From positions 1 to 46,022 of the IMG/VR virus record IMGVR_UViG_3300031566_000081: DNA of 46,022 nt. One strand, written 5' to 3'. This document shows, piece after piece, positions 1 to 46,022 of the stretch. The position numbers and the translations under genes were made by a program. The notes under the pieces were generated by a model. That model was given only the letters and a program-made list of their open reading frames with translations, made no database searches and was not told the origin of the DNA. Origin of the DNA: a virus. Positions within the stretch are counted from its first letter, which is position 1. Each line of letters begins with the position of its first letter.

Positions 1-154
1 TAACGATTTTTGCAGAAGATATTTTGGTTTTAATTGTGGTAGGACAATGAGGGTTTTTGCTAATTGCAGACTATTAGATAATAAAGTTTTTACAGACCGG
101 GAATACGAGTTTAAGAGAGGGCTTGGTCAGGTTGCTGGGATAGAAAAAATATGA
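1..154 (+). CDS. Small hypothetical protein, 5'-truncated by window edge
   Basis: This is the last 50 codons of a 68-residue protein whose complete copy is at 42633-42839. It ends in GIEKI just before the ribosome binding site of the next gene. The full protein has a basic N-terminal half (RRYFGFNCGRTMRVF) but no motif I can assign. Confidence 0.75.
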   Translation, partial: NDFCRRYFGFNCGRTMRVFANCRLLDNKVFTDREYEFKRGLGQVAGIEKI

Positions 155-167
155 AGGGAGGTGAAAA

Positions 168-368
168 ATGGATAAGCAATATGTAATTGTTCTGGAATGT
201 AGTGCTGGAAATGACCAGGTTGGAGATATGTGGTTAGAAACATTTATTTGTAATTCAGAAACCACTATCGCAGAAATAATGAAATGGAAAAAAGAGAAAC
301 ATAGTAAAGGTAGATTAATGATAACGGAGGCAAGTGAACCGAAAGAAGATGACGGTATATCATTTTGA
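168..368 (+). CDS. Hypothetical protein, 66 aa
   Basis: A small soluble protein preceded by an excellent ribosome binding site (GGGAGGTG, 7 bases before the ATG). It begins MDKQYVIVLE, a beta-strand-like N-terminus, and has a Lys-rich middle and an acidic C-terminus (PKEDDGISF). I recognise no family. It lies in the run of tightly spaced small early genes and is repeated at 42853. Confidence 0.7.
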   Translation: MDKQYVIVLECSAGNDQVGDMWLETFICNSETTIAEIMKWKKEKHSKGRLMITEASEPKEDDGISF

Positions 369-389
369 TAAATAAGAAGGAGGTGAACC

Positions 390-533
390 ATGAAGTTAAA
401 ATGGACTGATGAAGAGTCAAGGTATTTTAGCAATCCCATCAAAACAGCAGAACGGTATAGCGACTGGGGCTGGTGGATTGTAATGGCAGCATGCGTGCTA
501 ACTATAATCTGGAAGGGGGAAAATGAAAAATGA
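390..533 (+). CDS. Small membrane protein, 47 aa
   Basis: Starts at an ATG seven bases after AGGAGGTG. A charged N-terminal half (KLKWTDEESRYF) is followed by one hydrophobic segment, WGWWIVMAACVLTIIW, and a short charged tail, which suggests a single-pass inner-membrane peptide. Its stop overlaps the next start in an ATGA junction, so the two are translationally coupled. No family recognised. Confidence 0.65.
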   Translation: MKLKWTDEESRYFSNPIKTAERYSDWGWWIVMAACVLTIIWKGENEK

Positions 534-697
534 CTAAGGAAGAAAAATTTGAAAAAGCAATAGAGTGGTTAGAAAATGCTTCTTATAATTGCAACAATGT
601 TGCCAAAATAGGAGTGGGGTTAATGCCGATAATAAAAAGTCAAATAGATAATGCTATTAAGTATTTAAACAACGAAGACATTGAAGACATTTATTAA
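530..697 (+). CDS. Hypothetical protein, 55 aa
   Basis: Starts in an ATGA overlap with the upstream membrane peptide; GGGGGAAAATG upstream supplies the ribosome binding site. The product is helical in appearance (KFEKAIEWLENA, KSQIDNAIKYLNN) with an acidic C-terminus. No motif recognised. The coupled start and good spacing support real translation. Confidence 0.6.
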   Translation: MTKEEKFEKAIEWLENASYNCNNVAKIGVGLMPIIKSQIDNAIKYLNNEDIEDIY

Positions 698-726
698 GTA
701 AAAATATCAAGTAAGGGGGAAAACCA

Positions 727-939
727 ATGAAAGAATTAACACCAGAGCAGGAAAGCCTAATCGGTGATGACGCATATCACGAAAAAAAATTAGCAGAGGA
801 TATTGCTAAAGAAAAAAAGCAATATAAAAAAATCCCGATTAATCCTGAATGCTTTAACCGGATACTAAAAAAGATAGGGAGGAAGAAGCTCGATGACATT
901 GAGACATATAGCGATATACAGGGCAAGAATGAACGGTAA
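727..939 (+). CDS. Hypothetical charged protein, 70 aa
   Basis: A highly charged Lys/Glu-rich protein (KKLAEDIAKEKKQYKK) with a ribosome binding site AAGGGGGAAAACC before the ATG. Its last 47 bases overlap the next start in another frame. No domain recognised; it probably belongs to the same early transcript as the gene at 1068. Confidence 0.6.
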   Translation: MKELTPEQESLIGDDAYHEKKLAEDIAKEKKQYKKIPINPECFNRILKKIGRKKLDDIETYSDIQGKNER

Positions 940-1078
940 CAGTATAAAGGAAGAACAGGAAGTATTGGAAGATAGAAGAAGGCGCAGTAATGAAAACTTA
1001 TTTAAGCCAACTTCTTATGAGAAGTATTTATGGCAAAAAGAAAATAAAAAATTAGGAGGAAATAGAAATGAACGGTGA
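893..1078 (+). CDS. Hypothetical basic protein, 61 aa
   Basis: Starts within the end of the preceding gene. AGGGAGGAAGAAG ten bases upstream is a plausible ribosome binding site inside that gene. The product is basic (RRRRSNENLF, KENKKLGGNRNER) and its end overlaps the start at 1068. Overlaps on both sides are typical of compact phage early operons, but either frame could be the shadow, so confidence is moderate. Confidence 0.5.
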   Translation: MTLRHIAIYRARMNGNSIKEEQEVLEDRRRRSNENLFKPTSYEKYLWQKENKKLGGNRNER

Positions 1079-2246
1079 TGGAAAATTTGATAAAGGTAGA
1101 TATACAACGATACCTGAAACAAAGAATATTAAATTACCCATAGGAGGAAAAATAAGATTAGGTATTAAGGTTAAAAATGAAGAAGGGATAGAACACCCAA
1201 AGGAACTTAAATATTTTGTATGCCCAGAAGAAGTAACAAAGGTCTATGGAGAAGAGCCGACAAAATTAATCGTATTCTTTCCAAGAAATAACAGAGAAGA
1301 AATATTTCCACAATGTTATGAAAAATATGGAAGTAATGAGGCTTTGTTATGTCAAGGAGATGGAGATGTATCAAAAACCGCACAAAGACTTAATCTGGAA
1401 AATGGTAGATGGGAAGAAGTTAAATGTCCTTGTGAACATTTTGGAAAATATGATAAGAAAACCAAAATAGGTGGTTGTGTAAAGGCGGGATATTTGAAAT
1501 TCATGTTGCCTTCAGTTTCAATAGGTACTTTCTATCAGTGTAGAGTTGGAGGTACGGTATCAATAGAAGAATGCAATAGTGCTTTTGAATTAGCCAATAA
1601 GACTACTGGTGGCTGTTGGGCAATGATACCCTTCAAAATGGAAAGAGTATTAAAGAAATTAAAGATACCGGGAACTGCAAAGATGAAAGACCATTGGGTA
1701 GTTACTCTTGAAATCGCTGCAAGTGTTGAAGAAATTAGGAGAGTGGCAAACGGTGAGATATTGTACTTGGGTCAACCGAAAAATGGTCAATATGAACTTG
1801 AAGCACCTGAATTGCCTTTAATGAATAGAGCATATACCCCATTAGCTACTGAAGAAGAAATTAAAGAGAGAGAGGAAAGGCAAATTGAATTACAGGAAAA
1901 AGCGAATAGAGAGAATGAAAGAATCAATGAACAGCAAGCCAAACTTAAAAAAGAAAGAGAAGCAGGCAAGCATAATATAAGAACTCCGGAAGAAATAAGG
2001 AAAATACTCGAAAAAAGGAATGCTATTCTTGATGAGATTCAAACGGTAGCGAGAGCCTATAAAGTTAATAATTGGGGAGAAATAATGGATATCGGCGAAA
2101 GGCACAATGTATTTCCAAAAGGTTTAGTGGCCAGTCAAGTCAAAACAATAGTAGTTGACCATCCGGATAAATACGACGCTTTACTGGCAGCATTCAAGGC
2201 TGACCAAGAAGTTACCGATGAGGACATACCAAAAGACACAGACTAA
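1068..2246 (+). CDS. Recombination directionality factor-like (phage gp3-like) protein, 392 aa
   Basis: The largest early protein. The N-terminal 230 residues have the layout I associate with the phiC31 gp3-like family of clostridial and related phages, often annotated 'hydrolase or metal-binding'. The marks are an opening LPIGGKIRLGIKVKN, a PEEVTKVYGEEPTKLIVFFP segment, and a Cys cluster CPCEHFGKYDKKTKIGGC that could bind zinc. In phiC31 this protein binds serine integrase and turns integration into excision. Residues about 265-305 form a Glu/Lys-rich coiled coil (EEEIKEREERQIELQEKANR). No integrase is visible here, so the role may be different. Family recalled from sequence character, not from a search. 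The ribosome binding site AGGAGGAAATAGA precedes the ATG. Repeated at 43753. Confidence 0.6.
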   Translation: MNGDGKFDKGRYTTIPETKNIKLPIGGKIRLGIKVKNEEGIEHPKELKYFVCPEEVTKVYGEEPTKLIVFFPRNNREEIFPQCYEKYGSNEALLCQGDGDVSKTAQRLNLENGRWEEVKCPCEHFGKYDKKTKIGGCVKAGYLKFMLPSVSIGTFYQCRVGGTVSIEECNSAFELANKTTGGCWAMIPFKMERVLKKLKIPGTAKMKDHWVVTLEIAASVEEIRRVANGEILYLGQPKNGQYELEAPELPLMNRAYTPLATEEEIKEREERQIELQEKANRENERINEQQAKLKKEREAGKHNIRTPEEIRKILEKRNAILDEIQTVARAYKVNNWGEIMDIGERHNVFPKGLVASQVKTIVVDHPDKYDALLAAFKADQEVTDEDIPKDTD

Positions 2247-2269
2247 TTTTTTCATTTTAGTACCTCCAG

Positions 2270-2295
2270 GGCGGGTCAGCCTATCGAGACCCGCC
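2270..2295 (+). terminator. GC-rich stem-loop after the RDF-like gene
   Basis: GGCGGGTC and GACCCGCC form a perfect 8-bp stem around a 10-base loop, 24 bases after the upstream stop. The following bases are T-rich but broken (TGCTATTATTCTAATTG), so termination may be partial. It separates the RDF-like gene from the HNH gene, consistent with the latter being an insertion. Repeated at 44955-44980. Confidence 0.65.
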
Positions 2296-2342
2296 TGCTA
2301 TTATTCTAATTGTTTATAAAATTTTTATTAAAAGGAACATCA

Positions 2343-2963
2343 ATGCTTACTAAAATAGAATACCAAAAACAATATTATATTAAAAATAAGGACAAAATAA
2401 AGGCTTATGCAAAAAAGTATCATCTTGATAATTTAGAATATCATAAGCAATATTATAAAAATTATTATCTTAATAATAAAGAAAAATATTTCTATAAATA
2501 TAAATATAATCTTGAATATTATCGAGAACATAAAGAGCAAATTCAAAAATATTACAAAAAATATTACAACGATAATAAAGATAAATATTCCGATATTGCA
2601 AAAAAGTGGCGGGATAACAATCCAGATAAGGCAAGAGAGAATAGGAGAAAATGGAAGGAAAATAATCCTGGAAAATATAAAACAATGAAACAAAGAAAAG
2701 ATACTAAAAGAAGAATAAGAGAAAATAAAATTATAAACACTCTAACATATAAAGAATGGTTGAATATTTTAAAAAAATATGATTACAAATGTGCTTATTG
2801 TGGTTGTGAATTTGATGAAAATACATTACCACAAAAAGATCATGTTATACCAATTAGTAAAGGCGGACATAATACGAAAGAGAATGTAGTACCTGCTTGT
2901 ATAATTTGTAATTCAAAAAAGTGGACTAAAATAATTCAACCTTATCAATTATCATTTTATTAA
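2343..2963 (+). CDS. HNH homing-type endonuclease with Tyr/Lys-rich repeat N-terminus, 206 aa
   Basis: The C-terminal 70 residues are a classic HNH nuclease: CAYC, then KDHVIPISKGG, then a second CIIC pair in PACIICNSKKW, giving a zinc-bound beta-beta-alpha-metal site. The first 130 residues are irregular repeats of about 12-17 residues (KYYKKYYNDNKDKYS, KKWRDNNPDKARE, RKWKENNPGKYK), probably DNA-binding. I start it at ATG 2343, preceded by AAAGGA, rather than at an upstream TTG. It sits between a terminator and the Cys-rich genes, as expected for a freestanding mobile endonuclease. It is clearly paralogous to the protein at 24927-25571. Repeated at 45028. Confidence 0.9.
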   Translation: MLTKIEYQKQYYIKNKDKIKAYAKKYHLDNLEYHKQYYKNYYLNNKEKYFYKYKYNLEYYREHKEQIQKYYKKYYNDNKDKYSDIAKKWRDNNPDKARENRRKWKENNPGKYKTMKQRKDTKRRIRENKIINTLTYKEWLNILKKYDYKCAYCGCEFDENTLPQKDHVIPISKGGHNTKENVVPACIICNSKKWTKIIQPYQLSFY

Positions 2964-2989
2964 TAAAAGAAATTAAGGAGGTAAAGGGA

Positions 2990-3214
2990 ATGTCAGATTA
3001 CACTTGTGGAACGTGTAAGTATTATAAATTGTATGGTTTTTTTGATGTTGAAAGGTATTGTTGTGGTATAACTGGACAACCTGTATCTAAGCGACATACT
3101 TGTGACGACTGGACAGATGATAGCGAGGTCGAGCTAACCGACGAGGAGAAAGATGCTATTAAGGGCGATATCGAGGCACATAGAAGGATGGTAGAGGGGA
3201 GGGAGATAGGGTGA
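2990..3214 (+). CDS. Cys-rich putative zinc-binding mini-protein, 74 aa
   Basis: The N-terminal 40 residues carry CGTCKYY, a CCG pair and a later Cys in KRHTCDDW, a small metal-binding knuckle common in uncharacterised phage proteins. The C-terminus is acidic and helical. AAGGAGGTAAAGGGA precedes the ATG. It overlaps the next gene by four bases (GTGA), implying coupling. Function unknown. Confidence 0.7.
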   Translation: MSDYTCGTCKYYKLYGFFDVERYCCGITGQPVSKRHTCDDWTDDSEVELTDEEKDAIKGDIEAHRRMVEGREIG

Positions 3215-3420
3215 AGATAATAAAAGTTAAAAATTGTGAAGACTGTATCTATTATATAAATATCGGAAGGCCATATTTTTATTTTTATTGTGGTGAAAAA
3301 TATAGATTAACTAAAGAAATATTTAAAATAGAAGATGAAAATAAAATCCCCTTATGGTGTCCATTACCAGATATTGATGAGGCAATAGCATTTGAAAAAG
3401 AAATGGAGGAGATAGATTGA
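3211..3420 (+). CDS. Cys-rich putative zinc-binding mini-protein, 69 aa
   Basis: Starts at GTG within the upstream stop; GGGGAGGGAGATAGG is the ribosome binding site. It contains NCEDCIYY, FYCGEKYR and LWCP, four Cys spaced like the protein just upstream, so the pair may have arisen by duplication. The C-terminal helix is acidic. Function unknown. A truncated second copy runs off the window end at 45896-46022. Confidence 0.65.
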   Translation: MKIIKVKNCEDCIYYINIGRPYFYFYCGEKYRLTKEIFKIEDENKIPLWCPLPDIDEAIAFEKEMEEID

Positions 3421-37876: not shown

Positions 37877-38029
37877 ATGAAAATGCTAAAAGTTTTAATA
37901 ATCTATATCTTAATAGCGGTTATATCATTTATAGCAGGAAAAAATATATGGGTCAATCATAACAAGCATAAGATAGATACAAAGATAGAATGCGAGGGTG
38001 GGATTTGCCCACCGCCAGAAGGATATTAA
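37877..38029 (+). CDS. Small membrane peptide with Cys/Pro C-terminus, 50 aa
   Basis: ATG 37877 behind AGAAGGGTAATC. One N-terminal helix (KVLIIYILIAVISFIAG), then a charged stretch and a C-terminal CEGGICPPPEGY. The short membrane peptide with a Pro-rich end resembles Rz1-like or toxin-like micro-proteins, but it lacks a lipobox. It lies between the methyltransferase and the metallophosphoesterase. No family recognised. Confidence 0.55.
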   Translation: MKMLKVLIIYILIAVISFIAGKNIWVNHNKHKIDTKIECEGGICPPPEGY

Positions 38030-38051
38030 AAGAAGTAAAGGAGGAGGATAT

Positions 38052-39173
38052 TTGACAGATTATAAATGTCCTAAATGTGGGTCAAGCAAGTTAACTAAAC
38101 GAGGCTTTAATTCACATAATAAACAAAGATACCATTGTGAGGATTGCGGTTATTATCCGACAGAGGGGGCTAAAAAGCATAGGAATAAGGAAGATATAAA
38201 ACCGATAGGAGAAAAATTAATAAAATTATTAACAAAGGGTAGTTTTTCTATTGAAGAATTAAGTGACAAAAGTGGATTAATCCCCAAAGAAGTAAGAAAG
38301 ATGATTACCGAATTAGAGGAGAAAAAATATAATATACACTATTTCGATAACAAAGTTGAACTTACAAAAGAGATAAAGCCAGGTAATACTCAAAAATTGA
38401 ATATCGAATATTGGAAGGGCGACAAAATAAAATTAGGTTTCGTATCCGATACACATCTATGTTCTAAATTCGAGAGATTGAAGGAATTGAATTTAATTTA
38501 TGACATTTTTGCAGATGAAGGGATCAGGTTAGTCTATCACGGTGGAAATTACATCGAAGGAGAATGGCCAAAAAATAAATATGAAATCCACACAAGAGGG
38601 ATAACTCCACAAGTAGAATACTTTATAAATAACTACCCCGGAAGAAAAGGTATAGTTACAAAATTTATTGCTGGCGATGATCATGAAGGTTGGTATGCTC
38701 AGAGGGAACGTATTAATATCGGTGAATATACCCAAATGAAAGCCGAACAAGCAGGTAGAAAAGATTTAGAATATATCGGATATTTGGAATGTGATATACC
38801 CTTTGAAGGCATAGAGGGCGAGTCCTGGATGAGAATAATGCATGGCGGTGGCGGTACTGCTTATGCTCTATCTTATACACCGCAAAAGATAGTTGAAAGT
38901 CTGCAAGGTGGGGAAAAACCCAGAGTATTGCTTTTGGGCCACTATCATAAAATAGATTATTGTTTCCCCCGGGAAGTCCACGTTATACAGATGGGTTGTT
39001 ATCAGGACCAGACTACCTGGATGAGGAAACAGAAAATACAGGCGCATATAGGTGGCGGTATATTACACATGAGACTGGCCAAAGATGGAACGATTAACCG
39101 CATAATGCCAGAGTTTATTACATTCTTTAATAAGAAATTCTATATAGGAAATGATAAATATTGGATTAAATAA
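38052..39173 (+). CDS. Zinc-ribbon / winged-helix / metallophosphoesterase fusion, 373 aa
   Basis: I start at TTG 38052, seven bases after AAGGAGGAGG. Residues 6-32 are an InsA-like zinc ribbon (CPKCGSSKLTKRGF ... RYHCEDCGYYP; Cys6, 9, 29, 32), 45-105 a winged-helix-like segment (LIKLLTKGSFSIEELSDKSG), and from about 117 a calcineurin-type phosphoesterase. That domain has DTH (Asp123, His125), HGGN (154-156), AGDDHEG (197-203), MHGGGG (His254) and GHYH (286-289). The usual GD is GN at motif II and the usual GNHE is GDDHE at motif III, an apparent Asp/Asn exchange. The DNA-binding front end suggests action on DNA. Substrate unknown. Confidence 0.8.
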   Translation: MTDYKCPKCGSSKLTKRGFNSHNKQRYHCEDCGYYPTEGAKKHRNKEDIKPIGEKLIKLLTKGSFSIEELSDKSGLIPKEVRKMITELEEKKYNIHYFDNKVELTKEIKPGNTQKLNIEYWKGDKIKLGFVSDTHLCSKFERLKELNLIYDIFADEGIRLVYHGGNYIEGEWPKNKYEIHTRGITPQVEYFINNYPGRKGIVTKFIAGDDHEGWYAQRERINIGEYTQMKAEQAGRKDLEYIGYLECDIPFEGIEGESWMRIMHGGGGTAYALSYTPQKIVESLQGGEKPRVLLLGHYHKIDYCFPREVHVIQMGCYQDQTTWMRKQKIQAHIGGGILHMRLAKDGTINRIMPEFITFFNKKFYIGNDKYWIK

Positions 39174-39176
39174 TAT

Positions 39177-39282
39177 GGGGGCGTAAGGTTTCGATAGCAG
39201 AATAACACCGCTAAATGGGAGTAGGGCAATTCCAACAGGTGCGAAAAGCTACACTCGGGTTCGATTCCCGACGCCTCCACCA
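39177..39282 (+). ncRNA. tmRNA-like RNA lacking a tag reading frame (tRNA-like domain only)
   Basis: A 106-nt element three bases after the upstream stop. GGGGGCG (39177-39183) pairs with CGCCTCC (39272-39278), followed by A and an encoded CCA. The third pair is G-U, the alanine identity element of tmRNA and tRNA-Ala. Next comes TAAGGTTTCGATAG, the tmRNA D-loop signature (GGUUUCGA). A T-arm TCGGG/CCCGA with loop TTCGATT closes the 3' side. Instead of an anticodon arm there is an interrupted stem (TAGC/GCTA, then CACC/GGTG) topped by TGGGA/TTCCA. Normal tmRNAs are about 350-400 nt with a tag ORF and pseudoknots; here the whole mRNA-like part is missing. It could be a decoy, a reduced tmRNA, or a relic of integration at ssrA. 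Confidence 0.75.
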
Positions 39283-39286
39283 TATT

Positions 39287-39363
39287 GCTGGCATAGCTCA
39301 AGTTGGCAGAGCAACTGCCTTGTAAGCAGTGGGTTGTCTGTTCGATTCAGACTGTCAGCTCCA
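39287..39363 (+). tRNA. tRNA-Thr(TGT)
   Basis: Complete cloverleaf: acceptor GCTGGCA/TGTCAGC (one G-T pair), D-arm GCTC/GAGC, anticodon arm ACTGC/GCAGT with loop CTTGTAA giving anticodon TGT (39321-39323), variable loop of five bases, T-arm GTCTG/CAGAC with loop TTCGATT, discriminator T and encoded CCA. It reads ACA and ACG/ACT-type threonine codons, frequent in this AT-rich genome. It starts four bases after the tmRNA-like RNA, so both probably come from one transcript. Confidence 0.95.
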
Positions 39364-42636: not shown

Positions 42637-42839
42637 AAATCATAATGACTAACACAGCGGATCACACGAGGAAAGTTATAACTTTTAACGATTTTTGCAG
42701 AAGATATTTTGGTTTTAATTGTGGTAGGACAATGAGGGTTTTTGCTAATTGCAGACTATTAGATAATAAAGTTTTTACAGACCGGGAATACGAGTTTAAG
42801 AGAGGGCTTGGTCAGGTTGCTGGGATAGAAAAAATATGA
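42633..42839 (+). CDS. Small hypothetical protein, 68 aa (complete copy)
   Basis: The full version of the gene cut by the window start. It is coupled to the HNH gene and has a basic, Phe/Arg-rich middle (FNDFCRRYFGFNCGRTMRVFANCR) with three Cys. It is followed by GGGAGGTG of the next gene. Function unknown. The terminal repeat begins inside it, at 42686. Confidence 0.65.
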   Translation: MKIIMTNTADHTRKVITFNDFCRRYFGFNCGRTMRVFANCRLLDNKVFTDREYEFKRGLGQVAGIEKI

Positions 42840-42852
42840 AGGGAGGTGAAAA

Positions 42853-43053
42853 ATGGATAAGCAATATGTAATTGTTCTGGAATGTAGTGCTGGAAATGAC
42901 CAGGTTGGAGATATGTGGTTAGAAACATTTATTTGTAATTCAGAAACCACTATCGCAGAAATAATGAAATGGAAAAAAGAGAAACATAGTAAAGGTAGAT
43001 TAATGATAACGGAGGCAAGTGAACCGAAAGAAGATGACGGTATATCATTTTGA
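42853..43053 (+). CDS. Hypothetical protein, 66 aa (repeat copy of 168-368)
   Basis: Identical copy of the gene at 168-368, with the same GGGAGGTG ribosome binding site. In the circular genome this is the same gene, lying directly downstream of the HNH gene pair. Confidence 0.7.
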   Translation: MDKQYVIVLECSAGNDQVGDMWLETFICNSETTIAEIMKWKKEKHSKGRLMITEASEPKEDDGISF

Positions 43054-43074
43054 TAAATAAGAAGGAGGTGAACC

Positions 43075-43218
43075 ATGAAGTTAAAATGGACTGATGAAGA
43101 GTCAAGGTATTTTAGCAATCCCATCAAAACAGCAGAACGGTATAGCGACTGGGGCTGGTGGATTGTAATGGCAGCATGCGTGCTAACTATAATCTGGAAG
43201 GGGGAAAATGAAAAATGA
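43075..43218 (+). CDS. Small membrane protein, 47 aa (repeat copy of 390-533)
   Basis: Identical copy of the single-pass membrane peptide at 390-533. Confidence 0.65.
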   Translation: MKLKWTDEESRYFSNPIKTAERYSDWGWWIVMAACVLTIIWKGENEK

Positions 43219-43382
43219 CTAAGGAAGAAAAATTTGAAAAAGCAATAGAGTGGTTAGAAAATGCTTCTTATAATTGCAACAATGTTGCCAAAATAGGAGT
43301 GGGGTTAATGCCGATAATAAAAAGTCAAATAGATAATGCTATTAAGTATTTAAACAACGAAGACATTGAAGACATTTATTAA
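43215..43382 (+). CDS. Hypothetical protein, 55 aa (repeat copy of 530-697)
   Basis: Identical copy of the helical peptide at 530-697, coupled to the upstream gene by ATGA. Confidence 0.6.
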   Translation: MTKEEKFEKAIEWLENASYNCNNVAKIGVGLMPIIKSQIDNAIKYLNNEDIEDIY

Positions 43383-43411
43383 GTAAAAATATCAAGTAAG
43401 GGGGAAAACCA

Positions 43412-43624
43412 ATGAAAGAATTAACACCAGAGCAGGAAAGCCTAATCGGTGATGACGCATATCACGAAAAAAAATTAGCAGAGGATATTGCTAAAGAAAA
43501 AAAGCAATATAAAAAAATCCCGATTAATCCTGAATGCTTTAACCGGATACTAAAAAAGATAGGGAGGAAGAAGCTCGATGACATTGAGACATATAGCGAT
43601 ATACAGGGCAAGAATGAACGGTAA
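43412..43624 (+). CDS. Hypothetical charged protein, 70 aa (repeat copy of 727-939)
   Basis: Identical copy of the Lys/Glu-rich protein gene at 727-939. Confidence 0.6.
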   Translation: MKELTPEQESLIGDDAYHEKKLAEDIAKEKKQYKKIPINPECFNRILKKIGRKKLDDIETYSDIQGKNER

Positions 43625-43763
43625 CAGTATAAAGGAAGAACAGGAAGTATTGGAAGATAGAAGAAGGCGCAGTAATGAAAACTTATTTAAGCCAACTTCT
43701 TATGAGAAGTATTTATGGCAAAAAGAAAATAAAAAATTAGGAGGAAATAGAAATGAACGGTGA
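43578..43763 (+). CDS. Hypothetical basic protein, 61 aa (repeat copy of 893-1078)
   Basis: Identical copy of the overlapping basic-protein frame at 893-1078. Confidence 0.5.
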   Translation: MTLRHIAIYRARMNGNSIKEEQEVLEDRRRRSNENLFKPTSYEKYLWQKENKKLGGNRNER

Positions 43764-44931
43764 TGGAAAATTTGATAAAGGTAGATATACAACGATACCT
43801 GAAACAAAGAATATTAAATTACCCATAGGAGGAAAAATAAGATTAGGTATTAAGGTTAAAAATGAAGAAGGGATAGAACACCCAAAGGAACTTAAATATT
43901 TTGTATGCCCAGAAGAAGTAACAAAGGTCTATGGAGAAGAGCCGACAAAATTAATCGTATTCTTTCCAAGAAATAACAGAGAAGAAATATTTCCACAATG
44001 TTATGAAAAATATGGAAGTAATGAGGCTTTGTTATGTCAAGGAGATGGAGATGTATCAAAAACCGCACAAAGACTTAATCTGGAAAATGGTAGATGGGAA
44101 GAAGTTAAATGTCCTTGTGAACATTTTGGAAAATATGATAAGAAAACCAAAATAGGTGGTTGTGTAAAGGCGGGATATTTGAAATTCATGTTGCCTTCAG
44201 TTTCAATAGGTACTTTCTATCAGTGTAGAGTTGGAGGTACGGTATCAATAGAAGAATGCAATAGTGCTTTTGAATTAGCCAATAAGACTACTGGTGGCTG
44301 TTGGGCAATGATACCCTTCAAAATGGAAAGAGTATTAAAGAAATTAAAGATACCGGGAACTGCAAAGATGAAAGACCATTGGGTAGTTACTCTTGAAATC
44401 GCTGCAAGTGTTGAAGAAATTAGGAGAGTGGCAAACGGTGAGATATTGTACTTGGGTCAACCGAAAAATGGTCAATATGAACTTGAAGCACCTGAATTGC
44501 CTTTAATGAATAGAGCATATACCCCATTAGCTACTGAAGAAGAAATTAAAGAGAGAGAGGAAAGGCAAATTGAATTACAGGAAAAAGCGAATAGAGAGAA
44601 TGAAAGAATCAATGAACAGCAAGCCAAACTTAAAAAAGAAAGAGAAGCAGGCAAGCATAATATAAGAACTCCGGAAGAAATAAGGAAAATACTCGAAAAA
44701 AGGAATGCTATTCTTGATGAGATTCAAACGGTAGCGAGAGCCTATAAAGTTAATAATTGGGGAGAAATAATGGATATCGGCGAAAGGCACAATGTATTTC
44801 CAAAAGGTTTAGTGGCCAGTCAAGTCAAAACAATAGTAGTTGACCATCCGGATAAATACGACGCTTTACTGGCAGCATTCAAGGCTGACCAAGAAGTTAC
44901 CGATGAGGACATACCAAAAGACACAGACTAA
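43753..44931 (+). CDS. RDF-like protein, 392 aa (repeat copy of 1068-2246)
   Basis: Identical copy of the recombination-directionality-factor-like gene at 1068-2246; see that entry for domain layout. Confidence 0.6.
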   Translation: MNGDGKFDKGRYTTIPETKNIKLPIGGKIRLGIKVKNEEGIEHPKELKYFVCPEEVTKVYGEEPTKLIVFFPRNNREEIFPQCYEKYGSNEALLCQGDGDVSKTAQRLNLENGRWEEVKCPCEHFGKYDKKTKIGGCVKAGYLKFMLPSVSIGTFYQCRVGGTVSIEECNSAFELANKTTGGCWAMIPFKMERVLKKLKIPGTAKMKDHWVVTLEIAASVEEIRRVANGEILYLGQPKNGQYELEAPELPLMNRAYTPLATEEEIKEREERQIELQEKANRENERINEQQAKLKKEREAGKHNIRTPEEIRKILEKRNAILDEIQTVARAYKVNNWGEIMDIGERHNVFPKGLVASQVKTIVVDHPDKYDALLAAFKADQEVTDEDIPKDTD

Positions 44932-44954
44932 TTTTTTCATTTTAGTACCTCCAG

Positions 44955-44980
44955 GGCGGGTCAGCCTATCGAGACCCGCC
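44955..44980 (+). terminator. Stem-loop (repeat copy of 2270-2295)
   Basis: Same GGCGGGTC/GACCCGCC hairpin as at 2270-2295. Confidence 0.65.
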
Positions 44981-45027
44981 TGCTATTATTCTAATTGTTT
45001 ATAAAATTTTTATTAAAAGGAACATCA

Positions 45028-45648
45028 ATGCTTACTAAAATAGAATACCAAAAACAATATTATATTAAAAATAAGGACAAAATAAAGGCTTATGCAAAAA
45101 AGTATCATCTTGATAATTTAGAATATCATAAGCAATATTATAAAAATTATTATCTTAATAATAAAGAAAAATATTTCTATAAATATAAATATAATCTTGA
45201 ATATTATCGAGAACATAAAGAGCAAATTCAAAAATATTACAAAAAATATTACAACGATAATAAAGATAAATATTCCGATATTGCAAAAAAGTGGCGGGAT
45301 AACAATCCAGATAAGGCAAGAGAGAATAGGAGAAAATGGAAGGAAAATAATCCTGGAAAATATAAAACAATGAAACAAAGAAAAGATACTAAAAGAAGAA
45401 TAAGAGAAAATAAAATTATAAACACTCTAACATATAAAGAATGGTTGAATATTTTAAAAAAATATGATTACAAATGTGCTTATTGTGGTTGTGAATTTGA
45501 TGAAAATACATTACCACAAAAAGATCATGTTATACCAATTAGTAAAGGCGGACATAATACGAAAGAGAATGTAGTACCTGCTTGTATAATTTGTAATTCA
45601 AAAAAGTGGACTAAAATAATTCAACCTTATCAATTATCATTTTATTAA
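45028..45648 (+). CDS. HNH endonuclease, 206 aa (repeat copy of 2343-2963)
   Basis: Identical copy of the HNH gene at 2343-2963. Confidence 0.9.
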   Translation: MLTKIEYQKQYYIKNKDKIKAYAKKYHLDNLEYHKQYYKNYYLNNKEKYFYKYKYNLEYYREHKEQIQKYYKKYYNDNKDKYSDIAKKWRDNNPDKARENRRKWKENNPGKYKTMKQRKDTKRRIRENKIINTLTYKEWLNILKKYDYKCAYCGCEFDENTLPQKDHVIPISKGGHNTKENVVPACIICNSKKWTKIIQPYQLSFY

Positions 45649-45674
45649 TAAAAGAAATTAAGGAGGTAAAGGGA

Positions 45675-45899
45675 ATGTCAGATTACACTTGTGGAACGTG
45701 TAAGTATTATAAATTGTATGGTTTTTTTGATGTTGAAAGGTATTGTTGTGGTATAACTGGACAACCTGTATCTAAGCGACATACTTGTGACGACTGGACA
45801 GATGATAGCGAGGTCGAGCTAACCGACGAGGAGAAAGATGCTATTAAGGGCGATATCGAGGCACATAGAAGGATGGTAGAGGGGAGGGAGATAGGGTGA
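45675..45899 (+). CDS. Cys-rich mini-protein, 74 aa (repeat copy of 2990-3214)
   Basis: Identical copy of the gene at 2990-3214. Confidence 0.7.
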   Translation: MSDYTCGTCKYYKLYGFFDVERYCCGITGQPVSKRHTCDDWTDDSEVELTDEEKDAIKGDIEAHRRMVEGREIG

Positions 45900-46022
45900 A
45901 GATAATAAAAGTTAAAAATTGTGAAGACTGTATCTATTATATAAATATCGGAAGGCCATATTTTTATTTTTATTGTGGTGAAAAATATAGATTAACTAAA
46001 GAAATATTTAAAATAGAAGATG
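45896..46022 (+). CDS. Cys-rich mini-protein, truncated by window end (copy of 3211-3420)
   Basis: The first 42 codons of the protein complete at 3211-3420, starting at GTG; the window stops inside the gene. Confidence 0.65.
   Translation, partial: MKIIKVKNCEDCIYYINIGRPYFYFYCGEKYRLTKEIFKIED

Follow-up and report, generated by a model that had tools for sequence, protein, structure and literature searches.

A phage-encoded tagless tmRNA in which a capped stem replaces message and pseudoknots, and its relatives in viral genomes

Mycobacteriophage DS6A encodes a 'TLD only' tmRNA (tmID 11587), which PMC4131195 and PMC11915505 cite from Mao et al. 2009. According to PMC4131195, an RNA similar to the DS6A TLD strongly inhibits tmRNA in E. 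coli whether or not it can be charged, perhaps through titration of SmpB. Two plastid tagless tmRNA genes of ~65 bp are also on record (PMC11915505, PMC4131195), and the message-less tmRNA of mitochondria is conserved together with SmpB (PMC11915505). In a tmRNA database of 97,179 sequences, no more than 9 entries in standard order lack a reading frame (PMC11915505). In our literature search, conducted mostly outside the subscription literature, DS6A was the sole phage RNA of the tagless kind described, and no class of such RNAs was described. The initial annotation of the locus reported here had held tagless tmRNAs to be known only from mitochondria; DS6A and the two plastid genes contradict this (PMC11915505, PMC4131195), and because of them our RNA belongs to a kind that is already known, if barely populated. 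What appears to be new is how broadly it occurs, the defined architecture that covaries among its relatives, the invariant alanine identity and the existence of phage-host pairs suited to testing.

The window, by which we mean the whole 46,022-nucleotide stretch that was analysed, is a phage contig encoding a terminase, a portal/connector and major head proteins. Its first 3,337 bases are repeated exactly at its end (1-3337 = 42686-46022), indicating that the contig represents a genome unit of 42,685 bases (~42.7 kb) read past its start. The phage is only distantly related to isolates by its terminase, with a best identity of 34%. Between a protein-coding gene and a tRNA gene, the window encodes a phage tagless tmRNA of 106 nt, in which a tRNA-like domain is joined to a short capped stem that replaces the message and pseudoknots. 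The features of the locus are as follows.

37998-39173, + strand: gene of 391 aa, function unassigned; stop codon 3 nt upstream of the RNA; neighbour in the relative L050 93% identical
39177-39282, + strand: the complete RNA, a tagless tmRNA of 106 nt (match to RF00023 at 51.9 bits, exceeding the cut-off)
39177-39183, + strand: acceptor stem 5' strand GGGGGCG, 7 bp, third base pairing with U70 (G3.U70) (sequence)
39187-39194, + strand: tmRNA D-loop element GGTTTCGA, without a D-stem (sequence, RF00023 alignment)
39195-39198, + strand: inner (P2-like) stem 5' strand TAGC (fixed register directly after the D element)
39206-39209, + strand: second inner stem 5' strand CACC, pairing with GGTG 39238-39241 (minimum-energy fold; unvaried among near relatives)
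39216-39234, + strand: cap hairpin TGGGA-loop-TTCCA (compensatory changes in L021, L036 and L015)
39238-39241, + strand: second inner stem 3' strand GGTG (minimum-energy fold)
39248-39251, + strand: 3' strand of the inner (P2-like) stem, GCTA, separated from the T-stem by 3 nt (register comparison)
39255-39271, + strand: T-arm TCGGG-TTCGATT-CCCGA (sequence, RF00023 alignment)
39272-39282, + strand: acceptor 3' strand CGCCTCC, discriminator A73 and encoded CCA (sequence)
39287-39363, + strand: tRNA-Thr (TGT), 4 nt downstream of the RNA (ARAGORN and RF00005)

The RNA has the elements of a tmRNA tRNA-like domain (a 7-bp acceptor with G3.U70, the GGNTTCGA D element, a T-arm and A73-CCA), and the sequence of 39177-39282 has neither an anticodon arm nor a D-stem. 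The initial annotation had described such a domain here, as part of a phage-encoded, tagless, tmRNA-like RNA with alanine identity elements, and every element it described is in place. It had named tmRNA covariance models and ARAGORN for checking this, and the two differ: RF00023 matches the + strand at 51.9 bits (E 1.1e-17, model 1-374, message region skipped), above its gathering cut-off of 47 bits, while ARAGORN makes no tRNA or tmRNA call at 39177-39282. RF00023 is also the top family there of a clan that includes tRNA. Together with the missing D-stem and anticodon arm and the negative ARAGORN result, this speaks against the RNA being a tRNA. A two-piece (permuted) tmRNA was likewise rejected, as RF04321 reaches 26 bits against 47 and the halves stand in standard order, the 3' half not being first. 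Nor is this a complete tmRNA: the RF00023 middle, with its resume codon and tag frame, is skipped, and pseudoknots PK1-PK4 are absent, just 59 nt separating the halves in the alignment. The predicted fold is more stable than those of shuffled sequences (-34.1 kcal/mol, z -2.43). However, the energy model pairs D- with T-loop regions and does not form the T-arm, so it is the covariance model and the comparison with relatives that carry the case.

The initial annotation had proposed testing the stems for covariation among homologues, and L021, L036, L015, L050 and L008 all preserve stems by compensatory change. In the window the cap hairpin reads TGGGA/TTCCA; L021 and L036 have TAGGA/TCCTA, and L015 has TGGGA/TCCCA. 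The inner stem, TAGC/GCTA in the window, becomes TAAGG/CCTTA in L050 and TAGGA/TCCTA in L008 with its register unchanged; in L050 the upstream gene is 93% identical to that of the window, yet the middle of the RNA is wholly different and the inner stem has been re-formed. TAGC at 39195-39198 has an alternative, nearer partner in GCTA 39210-39213, which the folding program favours in L036, but we prefer the distal pairing because it stops 3 nt short of the T-stem, a register kept family-wide. In all size classes the inner stem adjoins GGNTTCGA at its start, and 3 nt lie between its end and the T-stem. At least 4 bp form in this single register in 83% of the 107 unique sequences listed, compared with 1.9% of shuffled middles, and other registers are occupied in 0-4% of sequences. 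Among the 47 divergent short-class members listed, pairs 1-7 are standard in 310/329 cells (168 ± 8 when shuffled); leaving out pair 1, which is set by the search pattern, pairs 2-7 are standard in 263/282 (about 121 when shuffled). Kinship can inflate such a score; the members had been thinned to <85% similarity, and all standard pair types are present. The inner stem is topped by an A-rich bulge and a small hairpin, the latter also varying pairwise (for example CCGC/GCGG, CCAC/GTGG, CCCC/AGGG). One near relative of the window RNA, L015:4907-5011, has a damaged T-stem, scores 29.3 bits and is perhaps a decaying copy.

Two of the pattern scans for relatives left the acceptor unconstrained, allowing its identity elements to be read independently. 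The first scan, of viral contigs, called for GGTTTCGA followed by a T-loop at 42-72 nt and yielded 17 unique sequences in which all 7 bp of the acceptor form; G3.U70 and A73 are present in every one (17/17). The second was directed at a shorter class of about 80-83 nt and gave at least 84 further sequences, every one listed having G3.U70 and A73. Across both scans, these elements occur in 101 of the 101 complete acceptors among the matches listed. Acceptor pairs 4, 5 and 6, on the other hand, vary freely, with G-C, C-G, A-U and U-A all seen. AlaRS recognizes G1-C72, G2-C71, G3.U70 and A73. The invariance of G3.U70 and A73 on an otherwise freely evolving stem is the footprint left by such recognition.

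Pooling the pattern scans, at least 190 viral or phage loci, comprising at least 148 unique sequences and at least 103 clusters (<85% similarity), share the tagless anatomy. Among the matches listed, the length of the middle has a sharp peak of 33-37 nt and a tail that reaches 94 nt; a peak this narrow, with a shared anatomy, is not expected from random decay of full-length tmRNA. The genomic contexts of the relatives are varied, frequently inside tRNA clusters. Among cultured phages, Stenotrophomonas virus Jojan60 has an unannotated mini form, scoring 61.8 bits and flanked by a tRNA cluster and DNA primase, and the Streptomyces phages LuckySocke, GiJojo, Shaeky and pSt2308 have unannotated mini forms within tRNA clusters; BRock, Tomas and Alone3 have more degenerate forms. 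ARAGORN made no tmRNA call at any of 20 tagless loci, which explains the missing annotation. One viral record of 135,953 bases, IMGVR_UViG_3300027749_000047, encodes two different mini forms (L098 and L124) about 67 kb apart. A medium-length subgroup (L199, L212, L227, L238, L023, L289 and L311) has a common in-stem motif like GACGAAAAGCCCA...CGAAA, which we take to resemble the stretch preceding the resume codon in full-length tmRNA.

No additional full-length tmRNA scored above the cut-off in 44 viral contigs and no SmpB gene was found in 43 carriers; with many of these contigs being fragments, the absences are no more than suggestive. If they hold, the partner of the RNA would be host SmpB. 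In cellular genomes, the short-class pattern, which is narrow, was found in 0 of 296 Streptomyces genomes and 0 of 369 genomes of a gammaproteobacterial class, consistent with a virus-borne element, and a pattern scan of genome contigs returned mostly tRNA pairs among the matches listed. Five Poribacteria genomes (L315, L328, L391, L397 and L426) encode an 86-nt mini form beside the same conserved gene (85-98% identical), and all three of those checked also have a full-length tmRNA elsewhere; this looks like a chromosomal, cellular tagless tmRNA. Several isolate matches were set aside, those of GMA2, Mx1, phi40:1, SlimJimmy, Phass-1 and LR756500 being full-length tmRNAs and those of Rb1, RcSimone-Hastad and Tunturi_4 permuted ones. 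Near the tmRNA/tRNA clusters of two of these phages we observed other structured RNAs above the Rfam cut-off, a GOLLD RNA in Mycobacterium phage SlimJimmy (L511:2308-2721) and a Pistol ribozyme in Gordonia phage GMA2 (L505:1843-1899). In Tunturiibacter phage Tunturi_4 (L507:1116-1463 and 1468-1877), the permuted tmRNA lies directly behind an annotated gene for a peptide chain release factor with an RF-1 domain, possibly a second ribosome-rescue factor.

The 3' ends of ssrA serve as integration sites for phages and islands, and the initial annotation had considered an old ssrA integration site, while noting that pairing at both ends speaks against a random att fragment. The Mycobacterium matches Milly and Validus are indeed ssrA att cores, matching the 3' part only and sitting beside an integrase, and were rejected as mini forms; the damaged T-stem of L015 could also point to decay. 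The window RNA looks different. Both of its halves are present and paired with strong covariation, no part of it recurs within the window as a repeated core would, and a tyrosine integrase is absent from the window and its close relatives and occurs in only 6 of 50 carriers (5 of 43 records in another count). With the peaked middle length among the matches listed, these observations make an integration scar or decaying ssrA copy extremely unlikely. Alternatively, this could be a tmRNA with an ultra-short tag of a few codons that is still translated. Two-codon tags occur in some bacteria (PMC11915505), and the window contains the frame Ala-Lys-Trp-Glu-stop from GCT at 39210. That frame is not kept in L021, L036, L050 or L008, however. 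Among the short-class members listed, closed Ala-started frames are no commoner than in shuffles, giving no sign of a conserved tag, and 14 of the 74 have a middle without any stop codon. We therefore consider a translated short tag very unlikely.

Among functional readings the best explanation, and the one towards which we lean, is a decoy: by sequestering SmpB, and probably the alanylation/EF-Tu route as well, the RNA would suppress host trans-translation. The stop codon 3 nt before the RNA and the tRNA-Thr 4 nt after it make tRNA-style co-transcription and processing likely, and the tRNA-Thr is probably in the same transcript. On this reading the RNA is probably transcribed together with the upstream gene and tRNA-Thr and excised in the manner of a tRNA; host AlaRS would charge it with alanine, and host SmpB and EF-Tu would bind it. 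Having no resume codon or tag, it would then tie up SmpB and/or stalled A sites as a decoy, so that host trans-translation would be suppressed during infection and phage proteins spared tagging. For this RNA we infer expression, charging, SmpB binding and inhibition from its sequence and its relatives; we know of no benefit to a phage shown to follow from inhibiting trans-translation. The sole recorded experiment concerns the DS6A-like RNA, whose inhibition of tmRNA is described in PMC4131195, and the same reading fits the window RNA by analogy, the SmpB surface and acceptor being kept and the message lost. Competition for SmpB, AlaRS or EF-Tu, suggested in the initial annotation, is the best-supported candidate mechanism. 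One point counts against a decoy: as reported in PMC4131195, inhibition is independent of alanine, whereas here the alanine identity elements never vary, a constraint for which a pure SmpB sponge would have no need. This invariance suggests that charging matters in nature too, making action on the ribosome, as a dead-end Ala-RNA or in tagless rescue, a serious refinement or rival. In tagless rescue, Ala-RNA with SmpB and EF-Tu would enter stalled ribosomes and take the nascent chain, the ribosome being freed or recycled without tagging, as is supposed for mitochondrial message-less tmRNA. The conservation of that RNA with SmpB (PMC11915505) and the invariant alanine identity both suit such a role, but without a stop codon there is no known step to finish the reaction, and the one experiment is reported to have given inhibition (PMC4131195); we regard rescue as unlikely. 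The close spacing of the three genes would also suit a tRNA-like processing or end-protection element, guiding RNase P/Z cutting or protecting the 3' end of the upstream mRNA and tRNA-Thr with no part in ribosome rescue. Such a role needs no G3.U70, A73 or tmRNA-specific GGNTTCGA element, and the relatives, often within tRNA clusters, stand in varied contexts, so we find it quite improbable.

We tentatively raise the possibility that tagless tmRNAs form a large class of phage RNAs directed against trans-translation, defined by their structure, occurring in phages that infect several groups of bacteria and overlooked by annotation. On this view the invariant alanine identity elements imply that the RNAs work on the ribosome, as Ala-RNA together with SmpB, and do more than soak up SmpB. 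If so, suppression of ribosome rescue would be a common phage strategy. Should the tagless RNAs inhibit trans-translation, phages would commonly silence ribosome rescue, while if they instead rescue without tagging, message-less rescue would be common outside organelles. Since cultured phages carry the RNA unannotated (e.g. Streptomyces phage LuckySocke on S. lividans), either reading is testable now.

Set against known RNAs, the window RNA shares G3.U70, A73, an acceptor stem and a T-arm with tRNA-Ala, but has the tmRNA D element in place of a D-stem and lacks an anticodon arm. It has the acceptor, G3.U70, GGNTTCGA and T-arm in common with full-length ssrA (RF00023; for example in phages Wildcat, Bxz1 and Mx1), which spans about 350-410 nt and includes a tag frame as well as pseudoknots, whereas the window RNA has neither in its 106 nt. 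The mitochondrial message-less tmRNAs (jakobids, oomycetes; RF02544) and the plastid pair are, like it, tRNA-like domains without a tag frame; they are organellar, most often permuted and paired with nucleus-encoded SmpB, in contrast to its standard order and phage-borne location. The DS6A type, compared here by its description, is a phage gene in standard order with a tRNA-like domain and no tag, all of which is true of the window RNA. DS6A is a single described case; in the window RNA the inner stem is composite and bears a cap hairpin, and its relatives are many.
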